From the NCBI RefSeq assembly GCF_004762035.2, contig NZ_SIJK02000058.1, positions 1 to 33,143 of the forward strand: a stretch of 33,143 bases of DNA, given 5' to 3'. The stretch is from Candidatus Chloroploca mongolica (GTDB taxonomy: Bacteria > Chloroflexota > Chloroflexia > Chloroflexales > Chloroflexaceae). The notes under the pieces were generated by a model that was not told the origin of the DNA, made no database searches, and was given only the letters and a program-made list of their open reading frames with translations. A program made the translations under genes and the position numbers. Shown one piece after another: positions 11,665-19,900 of this stretch (position 1 is the stretch's first letter; each line of letters starts with the position of its first letter).

Positions 11665-13068
11665 ATGCTCACACGACTGCGGCAATTTCGTGGGGTAGAG
11701 TTTCAATTGCTCTTCACGGTGCTAGTCTTCTTTGCAGCAGGTTATACGCTGGTAATGCTGGCGACCCGTCAGCGAGAGTTTGTCGCCACGCTGCCCGGTC
11801 TGCTGACGATCCTCTGGCCCTCGGCGCTGCCATTGCTGCTCTTTATTGCCGTGTCGATTGGCCTGGGTTTCAAGAGTCCGCATGCCGACCAGGTGCTGTT
11901 GCCACTGGTTGCGTTGCTCGCCGGGTTGAGCCTGATGCTGACCGCCCGCCTTGAGCCGAGCCTCAATGTACGCTACTTGTGTACTGCGGTTGGGGGTGAA
12001 GTCTTTCCCTGTTACGAAGGTATCGCGAGCAAACAGTCACTCTGGGTGACCCTGGGGGTGCTTGGCCTCGCGGCGATGCTCTTTGTACCCTGGGATCGCA
12101 TCCTGATTCGCTGGCTCAAGCTCACGTTGCTCGATGTGCTCGATAACTACCGCTATCTCTGGTTGACAATCGGACTTGTTCTGATCTTTGCCACGTTTTT
12201 GTTTGGGGTTGACCCGAATGATAGTGGCGTCAAGGTCTGGTTCAATTTTGGCTTTTTTTTCTTTCAACCGTCCGAGTTGCTCAAGATTATTCTGGTGATC
12301 TTTCTGGCGTCTTACCTCAATCAGCATCGCGAAGTGGTTGCCGCTGGCTATCGTCTCGGTCCGCTGACGTTGCCGCCGTTGCCCTATCTGGTGCCCCTCC
12401 TGGGGATGTGGGGCATTGCTATGGGCACCATTGTCTTTCAGCGCGATCTTGGGGCGGCTCTTTTACTCTATGGCGTCTTTCTGGCAATGCTCTATATTGC
12501 GACCGGACGAGCCTGGTATGTTCTGGCTGGGATGCTCGCCTTTGGCATCGGAGCCTATGTGCTCTACCAATTGCTGCCGATTGTTTCGCTGCGCGTCCAG
12601 ATCTGGCTTGATCCATGGGCCCAGGCGCAGAACCGGGGCTATCAGATTGTTCAGGCGATCTATGCGATGGCCTCCGGCGGCGTCTTCGGCCAGGGTCTCG
12701 GCATGGGGGTGCCTGCCGTCGTTCCAGCCATCCACACCGATTTCATCTTTACGGCGATTGGTGAAGAGATGGGCCTGATCGGGACGCTGGCAGTGCTGAT
12801 TGCTTATATCCTGCTGATTTTTCGTGGCTACCATATTGCGCTGCGTATCCCCGGTCGTTTTCGCGGGTTCGAACAATTGCTTGCCATTGGCCTCACCACG
12901 ATTATTGCGGTGCAGACCCTCATTATTATCGGGGGCAATCTCCGCCTGATTCCCCTCACTGGGATTACCCTCCCCTTCATTTCGTATGGCGGCTCATCGG
13001 TGCTGATCAACTTCATCATCGTCGGCTTATTGATGCGCATCTCTGCGACCGCTCACGCTCAGCCTTGA
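11665..13068 (+). CDS. FtsW/RodA/SpoVE-family peptidoglycan glycosyltransferase
   Basis: 467 residues of polytopic membrane protein with ten or more hydrophobic segments. The SEDS-family core is clear: WFNFGFFFFQPSELLKI, the catalytic-region FQRDLGAALLLYG with its essential Asp, and near the C-terminus GITLPFISYGGSSVL. Members polymerise lipid II into glycan strands for elongation (RodA) or division (FtsW). No penicillin-binding-protein partner gene lies beside it here, so I do not choose between the two. The loop around residues 110-125 (YLCTAVGGEVFPCYEG) contains two Cys and is unusual. It starts 16 bp after the hairpin that closes the threonine ammonia-lyase gene. Confidence 0.85.
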   Translation: MLTRLRQFRGVEFQLLFTVLVFFAAGYTLVMLATRQREFVATLPGLLTILWPSALPLLLFIAVSIGLGFKSPHADQVLLPLVALLAGLSLMLTARLEPSLNVRYLCTAVGGEVFPCYEGIASKQSLWVTLGVLGLAAMLFVPWDRILIRWLKLTLLDVLDNYRYLWLTIGLVLIFATFLFGVDPNDSGVKVWFNFGFFFFQPSELLKIILVIFLASYLNQHREVVAAGYRLGPLTLPPLPYLVPLLGMWGIAMGTIVFQRDLGAALLLYGVFLAMLYIATGRAWYVLAGMLAFGIGAYVLYQLLPIVSLRVQIWLDPWAQAQNRGYQIVQAIYAMASGGVFGQGLGMGVPAVVPAIHTDFIFTAIGEEMGLIGTLAVLIAYILLIFRGYHIALRIPGRFRGFEQLLAIGLTTIIAVQTLIIIGGNLRLIPLTGITLPFISYGGSSVLINFIIVGLLMRISATAHAQP

Positions 13069-13076
13069 TATGGTTT

Positions 13077-13096
13077 TTTGACGCAAAGGCGCAAAG
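13077..13096 (+). repeat. GCAAAGGC-type dispersed repeat, copy 1
   Basis: Contains TTGACGCAAAGGCGCAAAG just downstream of the FtsW/RodA-family stop. Related copies lie near 16.85, 17.5, 18.65, 19.7 and 22.1 kb. The rest of the 13069-13388 interval holds the promoter and leader described next. Confidence 0.55.
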
Positions 13097-13170
13097 ATGC
13101 GTGTGGAGATGCCGTCAGCCCTGCCCCCCCGGATGGATGGGACTAGCCAAAAACAGGACTTATGGTAGAA

Positions 13171-13200
13171 TTGCCATGCAACTATTTGATCGTGTATAAC
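13171..13200 (+). promoter_or_regulatory. Strong sigma-70-type promoter upstream of the HD gene
   Basis: TTGCCA (13171-13176, five of six consensus bases) and TATAAC (13195-13200, five of six) are separated by 18 bp. Transcription would begin near 13207, about 180 nt before the ATG at 13389. A tract of alternating TA follows directly (13201-13215). Confidence 0.55.
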
Positions 13201-13225
13201 GTATATATAGTATACCGAGTCGTGG

Positions 13226-13377
13226 GCGATCAATGAGGATCGCAGTACTCAGTCTGGGAAGAGTATTGTGCTCCCGCTGATAAGTTCCTCCAGTTGAGGA
13301 AGCGGGTAGAGGTGTCTGTTGGTGGGTAAGTTACCCGTTGCAATGTACTGGAGCGACTTCCAGTTCCCTGAGGAGGG
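13226..13377 (+). promoter_or_regulatory. Candidate structured 5' leader or small RNA
   Basis: The approximately 180-nt leader can fold into several separate stems. These are GCGATC/GATCGC (13226-13243); CCCGC plus TTCCTC against GAGGAA plus GCGGG with a one-sided 7-nt bulge (13273-13306); GGGTA/TACCC (13324-13336); and CTGGA/TCCAG (13348-13363). A long-range stem pairs CTCAG and GGAA (13248-13260) with TTCC and CTGAG (13364-13372). The last stem runs into the Shine-Dalgarno GAGGAGGG (13370-13377), so folding could hide the ribosome site. I do not recognise a known riboswitch or 6S RNA. Stems were found by eye and their energies were not calculated. Confidence 0.4.
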
Positions 13378-13388
13378 AATAAGATCCC

Positions 13389-13925
13389 ATGAATCATGCT
13401 GCCTTGATTGCCGATTTGCTTGCGCATCCGCGGGTTGTTGAAACTCGTCACCATTTGCACCACAGTGTCTCGAAGCACGACCATATGCTGCGCGTTGCGC
13501 GCTATTCGTATGCACTGGCGCCGTTGATGGGTGCCGATCAGCGTACGGCGACGCGGGCGGCAATTCTCCATGATCTCGATTCGCGCCTTGGGACGCTGAC
13601 AACCCACGGGGCGATCGCAGCGCGTGTGGCCGCTGAACTTGGGGAGGGCGAAGAGGTGTCGCAGGCCATTGTGAGCCATATGTACCCCCTTGGGCCTCGT
13701 CCGACGACCCGCGAAGGCTGGGTGCTTGCCGTGGCCGATAAGATTGCGTCAGTGACCGATCTGACCACGTTTGTCAGTGGTCTTTTTACTGGGCAGAGCA
13801 TTCAGATGCGGCGGCAGTTGTGCGCGTCTGATCCGTTTTATGCGGCCCGCCATTCCGGCCGCCGTCGCCGCCAGTTGATCACCCGTCTCTGGCGCCGCGA
13901 GGGCCGTCAGGCACTTTCGCAATAG
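13389..13925 (+). CDS. HD-domain metal-dependent phosphohydrolase
   Basis: 178 residues. HD-superfamily metal and catalytic residues are present: H30 in SKHDHMLRVARY, H61-D62 in AAILHDLDSR, H97 in IVSHMYPL, and D117 in AVADKIASVTD. The order H...HD...H...D and the size match stand-alone HD hydrolases of the kind seen in Firmicutes, whose substrates (nucleotides or nucleotide second messengers) are mostly unknown. The C-terminal 30 residues are strongly basic (HSGRRRRQLITRLWRREGRQ), suggesting nucleic-acid or membrane contact. It is monocistronic, with its own promoter, a long leader and a 24-bp hairpin terminator shared with the convergent gene. Confidence 0.8.
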   Translation: MNHAALIADLLAHPRVVETRHHLHHSVSKHDHMLRVARYSYALAPLMGADQRTATRAAILHDLDSRLGTLTTHGAIAARVAAELGEGEEVSQAIVSHMYPLGPRPTTREGWVLAVADKIASVTDLTTFVSGLFTGQSIQMRRQLCASDPFYAARHSGRRRRQLITRLWRREGRQALSQ

Positions 13926-13945
13926 TTTCGCCCTGAAAACGAAAA

Positions 13946-14003
13946 CTGTTGGTGCAGAACGATCCGAGCTTTGCTCGGATCGTTCTGCACCAACAGCCTT
14001 TTT
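13946..14003 (+). terminator. Bidirectional terminator between convergent genes
   Basis: Perfect 24-bp arms (13946-13969 and 13973-13996) with a TTT loop, followed by CCTTTTT on the plus strand and, read the other way, preceded by a GAAAAC tract. It separates the HD gene from the converging TVP38-like gene and should stop transcription from both sides. Confidence 0.75.
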
Positions 14004-14736
14004 ATGCCTCCTGGTTCTCTTTCTGCCGCAAGAACCGCGAGATGAGCAACCCGCTGAAAAAGAGTACCACCGAGAGAACGAGCGTCCACGGATTGATGGC
14101 TGAGATGCTGAAGTTGCCGGCAAAGATGTCGTCAATGTTCAGTGATGCGCCGGCAAGGACAAAGGTGAGCGTGCCTGGCAACGAGCCGAGGATGCTGGCA
14201 AGGATGTAGGGTCGGTACGGTACCCGCAAGAAGCCTGCCATATAGTTGACCAGGTCGTACGGCAGGTAGATCAGCCGCATCACCAGGATTGTGCTAAAGG
14301 CGTTGCGCCGCAGCCGCTCGGCATACCGGTTCATAAGGTTGCCTGTAGCGGCCTCGTTGCCCTCGGGCAAGACCCCCTTGCCAAAGACCCGCCCAAAACC
14401 GTAGGCCAGCGTCGCCGACATATTCGAGCCGATGATGACAAAGATTGTTCCCCAGAACGGCCCCCAGATGGCACCACCGATCAGGGTAACGACAATCGCC
14501 GAGAAGAAGGCGAGTGGCCGTAACGTGTAGATCAGGATGTAGAGCAACGGTCCAACCGGCGTGCGCAGCAGGTCGATCAGGTCGTAGAGCGTGTCGGTTG
14601 GCGAGCGCCCGGTGATCAGGCTATAGCCGAGAAACGTTCCAACCAGAGTGAGCCAGATGAGGGCGGCGAGGCCTTTTTGCCAGTGCCGCGCCCAGAACGG
14701 CGTGCGCTCAGGCACGCTACGTGATGTGTCTACCAT
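14002..14736 (-). CDS. TVP38/TMEM64 (DedA-superfamily) membrane protein
   Basis: 244 residues with about five or six hydrophobic segments. The VTT-domain signature is visible: LIGGAIWGPFWGTIFVIIGS (glycine-rich re-entrant region), then MSATLAYGFGR, and RLIYLPYDLVNYMAGFLRV in the second half. Family members are inner-membrane proteins, and related DedA/TMEM41-type proteins are linked to lipid scrambling or flipping. The gene starts 8 bp after the stop of a CDP-alcohol phosphatidyltransferase, with GAGGAG at the right distance, so the two form an operon. That pairing supports a phospholipid-related role by context only. Confidence 0.85.
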   Translation of the reverse strand: MVDTSRSVPERTPFWARHWQKGLAALIWLTLVGTFLGYSLITGRSPTDTLYDLIDLLRTPVGPLLYILIYTLRPLAFFSAIVVTLIGGAIWGPFWGTIFVIIGSNMSATLAYGFGRVFGKGVLPEGNEAATGNLMNRYAERLRRNAFSTILVMRLIYLPYDLVNYMAGFLRVPYRPYILASILGSLPGTLTFVLAGASLNIDDIFAGNFSISAINPWTLVLSVVLFFSGLLISRFLRQKENQEA

Positions 14737-19754: not shown

Positions 19755-19791
19755 ACCCTCAACAATTAATGATGTGCGCCAGCAAGCGCAC

Positions 19792-19887
19792 ATGCTGGGG
19801 GGGCCAGGCGAGCCTGGCTGAGAGTGTGGCCCATAATGCCACTAACCCTTCGAACCTGACCTGGGTAGTACCAGCGGAGGGAAGCAT
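19792..19887 (+). promoter_or_regulatory. TPP riboswitch (THI element)
   Basis: The conserved thi-box strings are in the right order: GGCTGAGAG (19816-19824), ACCCTT then GAACCTGACCTGGGTA (19845-19867) and TACCAGCGGAGGGA (19868-19881). P1 is closed by ATGCT (19792-19796) with AGCAT (19883-19887). It binds thiamine pyrophosphate and, with the hairpin that follows, should turn the operon off when the cofactor is plentiful. Confidence 0.95.
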
Positions 19888-19900
19888 CTACGGTGTGTTG

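Follow-up and report, generated by a model that had tools for sequence, protein, structure and literature searches.

The window analyzed here, a stretch of 33,143 nt from the Candidatus Chloroploca mongolica genome, holds a small gene whose product had been called an HD-domain hydrolase in an initial annotation made from the sequence alone. That assignment is borne out: the ATG at 13389 opens a frame for a 178-aa protein that matches Pfam PF01966 at E 8.8e-11. In Chloroploca, the gene is preceded by an FtsW/RodA-type gene and followed by a convergent VTT-domain gene. The features of the locus are as follows.

13163 to 13171, + strand: extended -10 of promoter 1, TGGTAGAAT; a 9-mer of this type occurs in 21/30 orthologue upstream regions
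13171 to 13200, + strand: promoter 2, TTGCCA-N18-TATAAC, read from the sequence; a TTGNNN-N18-TATAAC type in orthologue loci
13220 to 13226, + strand: possible closing helix, 5' arm; pairs in the minimum-energy fold with 13386–13392 around the start codon; counterpart in L041
13224 to 13287, + strand: conserved core RNA element, 64 nt; match of covariance model R1, of which the window copy is a training row
13226 to 13243, + strand: palindrome GCGATC-N6-GATCGC, an alternative small hairpin (structure A); exact in 6/10 leaders
13234 to 13276, + strand: core hairpin (structure B) with P1, P1b, P2, and a 10-nt loop, supported by alignment covariation
13273 to 13306, + strand: genus-specific hairpin CCCGC..GCGGG with TTCCTC/GAGGAA, read from the sequence; competes with the 3' strand of P1
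13364 to 13379, + strand: predicted hairpin TTCCCT-GAGG-AGGGAA holding the Shine-Dalgarno sequence; its only change in three genomes (13370) falls in the loop
13389 to 13925, + strand: HD-domain phosphohydrolase gene, 178 aa
13948 to 13994, no strand assigned: long inverted repeat from the consensus scan, 20 pairs counted (the tool maximum), T-rich tails on both strands

Judged by its sequence, the inverted repeat at 13948–13994 is probably a bidirectional terminator between the convergent genes, and the HD gene is therefore probably transcribed alone. The surroundings of the gene are different in several relatives (L070, L071, L074, L081, and L085), where the nearby genes are ones that we take to be lipB-, lipA-, AI-2E-type transporter-, or XRE-cupin regulator-like. 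The HD protein itself is widespread, with matches in 49 of 61 genomes searched (own genome included) and, for the order, in 59 of 82 genomes at E 1e-40. Because its catalytic-type HD residues are invariant, it looks like an enzyme. Many members of the family, including Chloroflexus orthologues with short leaders, also carry an arginine-rich C-terminal region. The AlphaFold2 model is confident (mean pLDDT 90.4), and the first PDB matches listed by Foldseek include glycyl-tRNA synthetase beta subunits (at the top), PgpH, an HD hydrolase, and YqeK, none of them reaching E 0.001. Pfam tRNA_synt_2f matches the protein at E 3.4e-5, under its curated cut-off, and the scores for the NCBIfam models of YqeK and glycyl-tRNA synthetase beta also fall under their curated cut-offs. 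A profile search with the protein returned, at about 1e-5, two HD-type proteins with no assigned function and one glycyl-tRNA synthetase beta subunit.

The promoter proposed upstream of the leader is present exactly where it had been placed, with TTGCCA at 13171–13176, an 18-nt spacer, and TATAAC at 13195–13200. Upstream of it lies the extended -10 element TGGTAGAAT, which had not been mentioned before. The 9-mer of this type is more widely kept than TTGNNN-N18-TATAAC, which by reading stands directly behind the 9-mer in 11 of 30 orthologue rows and anywhere upstream in 13 of 30. The consensus scan pairs TGGTAGAAT with TAGCCA as its -35, a combination found once against 0.7 expected and thus no evidence on its own. 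Since there are two -10 elements, transcription may start at two sites, which their positions would place near 13178 and 13207. At most loci that bear the core element, the 9-mer lies inside a block like CAGGACYYATGGTAGAATTG. Upstream of the HD genes in L056, L057, and L061, a GCAACC..ACGTCTG block persists even with the TATAAC site lost; this block may be a regulator site or the 5' end of the transcript.

The initial annotation had singled out the leader for its organized fold. Compared with shuffled sequences, its folding energy is low: positions 13200–13400 fold to −71.7 kcal/mol (z −3.25), and 0 of 200 shuffles were as low. However, the leader does not exceed chance by folding alone, since 18 of 93 upstream 200-mers of its own genome, taken from 19 stretches, have z-scores as low as that of the leader, whose own, slightly different 200-mer in this control scores −2.67; one control stretch contains the leader itself, so that one of the 18 may be the leader. 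Its z-score is therefore not outside the genome's own upstream background of 93 regions. Many of the low-scoring regions are probably terminator hairpins of preceding genes. Three of the 93 (L154, L155, and L146) fall below z −8, well beyond the leader. Single-sequence folding scores thus mean little in the Chloroploca genome, where cross-genome comparison can separate an element from the background. On the sequence evidence, the leader is real, and its support is this comparison between genomes, not folding stability.

Within Chloroploca, the leader is 96–97% identical, and the fourfold sites of the HD gene are 82–87% identical (84/103, 90/104, and 88/104), so the leader is the more conserved of the two. 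Ten positions vary between 13209 and 13388 among the three Chloroploca genomes, and they fall mostly in loops: three alternative folds pair 3, 1, and 3 of them (P 0.027, 0.003, and 0.073, respectively). Shortly before 13209, positions 13204 and 13205 vary as well. These aligned sequences show a leader under constraint.

Several helices had been drawn by hand in the Chloroploca leader, and they fared differently. The stem at 13273–13306 is present as sequence complementarity; it is invariant in the three Chloroploca genomes and has no counterpart outside the genus. A closing helix had been described as ending inside the ribosome-binding site. The minimum-energy fold does contain such a helix (13220–13226 with 13386–13392), but it covers the start codon, not the ribosome-binding site. 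L041 is the sole leader with a counterpart, CCGUGGG/CCCAUGG; none was seen in L043–L047 or L051. The long-range helix 13248–13372, which we reconstructed as 13248–13251/13369–13372 plus 13256–13260/13364–13368, had to be abandoned: L040 carries G>A at 13257 and L039 carries G>A at 13370, and each change breaks the helix without compensation.

Conservation across genera was followed at 30 of the 51 matches to the HD protein, whose upstream regions were oriented and read. The core element precedes the HD gene at 10 of these loci, in four genera (three Chloroploca genomes plus seven other genomes of three genera). Conservation of the leader upstream of HD orthologues, on which the initial annotation had staked its proposal, is thus found at a third of the loci, but the other 20 lack the core. 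In all 10 core loci, GCGATC starts 24–32 nt after TATAACG; its invariance is partly due to selection, because the rows were picked by eye for a long leader carrying GCGATC. A hairpin can be drawn in all ten, consisting of P1, an AU bulge, P1b, and a P2 of variable sequence. The downstream half of the Chloroploca leader is not kept outside the genus. Orthologues in Chloroflexus, Oscillochloris, and Herpetosiphon have no core upstream, and those of Chloroflexus and Oscillochloris have short leaders. On a tree of the 30 HD proteins, the leader rows lie inside a group of 14 rows (drawn open; support 80/79), and the leader label requires 4 changes versus 8.5 with shuffled labels, so that the leaders are clustered. 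The simplest reading, which is not proven, is a single origin with losses in L049, L042/L050, and L059.

Structure B comprises P1 (13234–13239/13272–13276), P1b (13241–13245/13266–13270), P2 (13247–13250/13261–13264), and the loop 13251–13260. Its pairs were counted on a standard MAFFT alignment made without regard to structure, and compared with 500 shuffles; the basis is eight distinct species-level rows, some of them close kin, and these sequences are also the ones in which the structure was first recognized. The fraction of paired cells is 81.4% (0/500 shuffles as high), 8 of 16 pairs are changed on both sides (shuffled mean 4.9; 18/500 as high), and 13 cells carry a change on both sides (shuffled mean 6.4; 1/500 as high). 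Further standard pair types did not exceed the shuffles (18 versus 17.3; 217/500). Six slid controls of structure B all scored lower. Some Chloroploca cells count as unpaired because P1 in that genus sits one base off the consensus register. Covariation is seen in the core hairpin. Of the two stems for which the initial annotation had proposed looking for it, 13273–13306 shows no change within the genus, and 13248–13372 is contradicted by the genus-level changes. Taken together, the alignments show conserved promoter elements and hairpin pairs that covary among the leaders of four genera.

Which fold is preferred depends on how the rows are weighted. With 8 rows (L039 and L040 dropped), RNAalifold returns structure B at z −4.4, and 1 of 500 column-shuffled alignments is as good; with the 7 rows other than Chloroploca, it returns structure B again, with compensatory changes in 8/16 pairs. 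With all 10 rows, three of which are the near-identical Chloroploca rows, it prefers structure A, two simpler hairpins including GCGATC/GATCGC (z −4.6; 0/500). Single-sequence folds also depend on the length considered. Structure B appears in 9/10 of the 64-nt cuts and in 8/10 whole leaders (A in L051, neither in L046), and the 82-nt cuts give B in 4/10 and A in 6/10. Both folds are accessible, which fits a switch yet weakens the claim for either one alone.

A covariance model trained without Chloroploca (R2) gave 13224–13285 as its best match in the 33-kb window (19.2 bits, E 0.011). In its own 6.3-Mb genome, the window copy is again first, at E 2.0; the homologous site ranks second in one sister genome (E 1.9) and third in the other (E 1.2). 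A sequence-only model built from the same rows did not list the window copy in the window at E 10. The window copy thus has the look of a diverged relative that is recognized by its structure where one would expect it, and its own statistical weight is weak. The model trained on all rows (R1) scores the ten HD leaders, its own training rows, at 52–74 bits. With strict filters, a search of 82 order and 158 class genomes gave nothing else above 32 bits among the matches listed. Two lower candidates were set aside: G014:C150 (31.7 bits), which appears to sit in an open frame, and G151:C4 (31.5 bits), which lies inside long ORFs. DNA similarity does not extend far, the best match beyond the genus having E 0.007 over 20 bases, near chance across 61 genomes; within the genome itself, no further copy was convincing (next best E 0.3).

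The view that the leader fits no known class is upheld by Rfam 15, which has no family at the leader at its gathering cut-off. Up to E 10, the interval 13050–13500 yields SmY (opposite strand, 21.4 bits versus 39) and mir-7398 (15.8 versus 44), both under the cut-off. The window's only match above its Rfam gathering score is a TPP riboswitch at 19787–19899 (+), with 70.1 bits. The leader was also rightly said not to be 6S RNA: RF00013 has no match there, and its single match in the genome at E 0.001 lies elsewhere (G000:C115:22751–22921, L159; 57.6 bits). ARAGORN found 0 tRNA or tmRNA genes in 13050–14050. The scan found no terminator-like site in the leader; the six listed in 13000–14050 sit at 13761–13782 and 13948–13994. 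This argues against termination control and also against a stand-alone small RNA, a suggestion of the initial annotation that we do not retain, there being no terminator-like site before 13389 and 6S RNA being encoded elsewhere. A covarying structure upstream of the same gene, the mark of a cis-regulatory leader, occurs at 10 of 30 loci, which are few sequences. We found no account of the leader in the literature that we covered on Chloroploca, Chloroflexi structured RNAs, Chloroflexus transcript maps, and HD leaders, which included few subscription journals.

Our preferred explanation, for which we judge the balance to be about level, is that this stretch serves the HD mRNA as its 5' untranslated leader and works as a cis-regulatory RNA, restricted to one lineage, by which translation of the HD protein is controlled. 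A trans-acting factor or a ligand would bind the core hairpin, which carries GCGAUC and the AU bulge. In Chloroploca, the downstream half would then decide whether the Shine-Dalgarno hairpin (13364–13379) and the start-codon helix (13220–13226/13386–13392) stay closed, and the closed or open state would set translation of the HD protein. The competing core folds A and B, which share the GAUCGC strand, would constitute the switch. Translation is the likely output because the downstream half carries the Shine-Dalgarno hairpin and the possible start-codon helix. Start-site occlusion itself is a prediction: the unpaired probabilities around the start are intermediate in the window (0.45 and 0.33) and vary among species.

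It is useful to weigh this explanation against others. First, the HD protein or another RNA-binding protein could bind the core hairpin and repress translation of its own mRNA. In the order and class genomes searched under strict filters, the element was found solely before the HD gene, the top structure matches of the HD fold are glycyl-tRNA synthetase beta subunits (with the sub-cut-off tRNA_synt_2f match), and the arginine-rich C-terminal region is present in many members. However, that tail also occurs in the Chloroflexus orthologues with short leaders, the invariant catalytic-type residues make the protein look enzymatic, and no Foldseek match reaches E 0.001; we regard such autogenous control as unlikely. 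Second, the stem-loops could passively stabilize or insulate the 5' end, protecting a short monocistronic mRNA without any sensing. A hairpin kept while many stem letters change would suit this role, as would the strong terminator-like repeat after the gene and the abundance of strongly folding upstream regions in the genome. Stability alone would not need the shared GCGAUC and AU bulge, although GCGAUC served to pick the rows, and we hold passive protection, too, to be doubtful. The boldest reading would be a new class of regulatory RNA, in which a small arginine-tailed HD enzyme with a GlyRS HD-like fold acts as a switch on its own translation by binding the core hairpin of its mRNA, or the hairpin itself directly senses the enzyme's nucleotide substrate. 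This we offer as speculative, with a small chance of being right.

A small-molecule riboswitch, with the core as an aptamer that recognizes a hydrolase substrate or product, for example a nucleotide, seems improbable to us. The conserved GCGAUC and bulge beside covarying helices, as well as the two competing folds, would be in keeping with an aptamer, but the core is a single hairpin without a multi-helix junction. Known riboswitches usually recur before several genes, and this element was found in one part of the family, before one gene, and has no Rfam match. The near-fixed distance of the palindrome from the promoters admits a different reading, in which GCGATC-N6-GATCGC is a repressor site in the DNA and the RNA folds are incidental. 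The spacing of GCGATC behind TATAACG in 10/10 loci and the exact palindrome in 6/10 speak for an operator. Against it, the both-sided changes in P1, P1b, and P2 lie mostly outside the palindrome, and no palindrome regulon is seen, because the other two of the three exact sites in the genome sit within long ORFs; a DNA operator is thus quite improbable. Coding of the conserved stretch, as an upstream ORF or N-terminal extension, is very improbable: a 15-codon ATG ORF exists at 13233–13280 in the window, an in-frame GTG stands in L041 and L044, and some frames there continue into the gene, but 5/10 rows (L043, L045, L046, L047, and L051) lack such a start, both L040 changes within the ORF (13255 and 13257) alter the amino acid, and L041 and L044 do not share the frame that continues into the gene.

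Translational control by the leader, if true, may be relevant in several ways. To our knowledge, the phylum has few characterized RNA regulators, and the leader would add to it a small covarying RNA that is absent from Rfam 15. It would also draw attention to an uncharacterized HD phosphohydrolase whose abundance is under cellular control. Disrupt-and-restore mutations could be aimed directly at the covarying pairs. What is new is a leader RNA, of a known kind of element, that covaries, is restricted to one lineage, and has no Rfam family; it is represented by few sequences.

Finally, the leader can be set beside known systems. 6S RNA is about 180 nt long with a closing helix, and the leader shares that length and a closing helix, but has no RF00013 match. 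The HD protein resembles the HD domains of YqeK, PgpH, and glycyl-tRNA synthetase beta in its fold matches, but falls below the NCBIfam cut-offs for YqeK and the synthetase subunit. Chlorobi-RRM is reportedly linked to the leaders of RRM proteins. Both Chlorobi-RRM and Chloroflexi-1 come from the comparative survey of Weinberg et al. 2010 (PMC2864571); such leaders belong to another lineage and gene, and no Rfam model matches the HD leader, but they are likewise small, lineage-restricted, covarying RNAs before one kind of gene, with function unproven. The leader differs from translational riboswitches and autogenous leaders in that conservation of its downstream half ends with the genus and its ligand or protein is putative. 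In translational riboswitches and autogenous leaders of the ribosomal-protein type, a structured core is followed by occluded translation signals, the Shine-Dalgarno sequence and the start codon, and the HD leader is like them in its predicted occlusion of both sites downstream of a conserved core.
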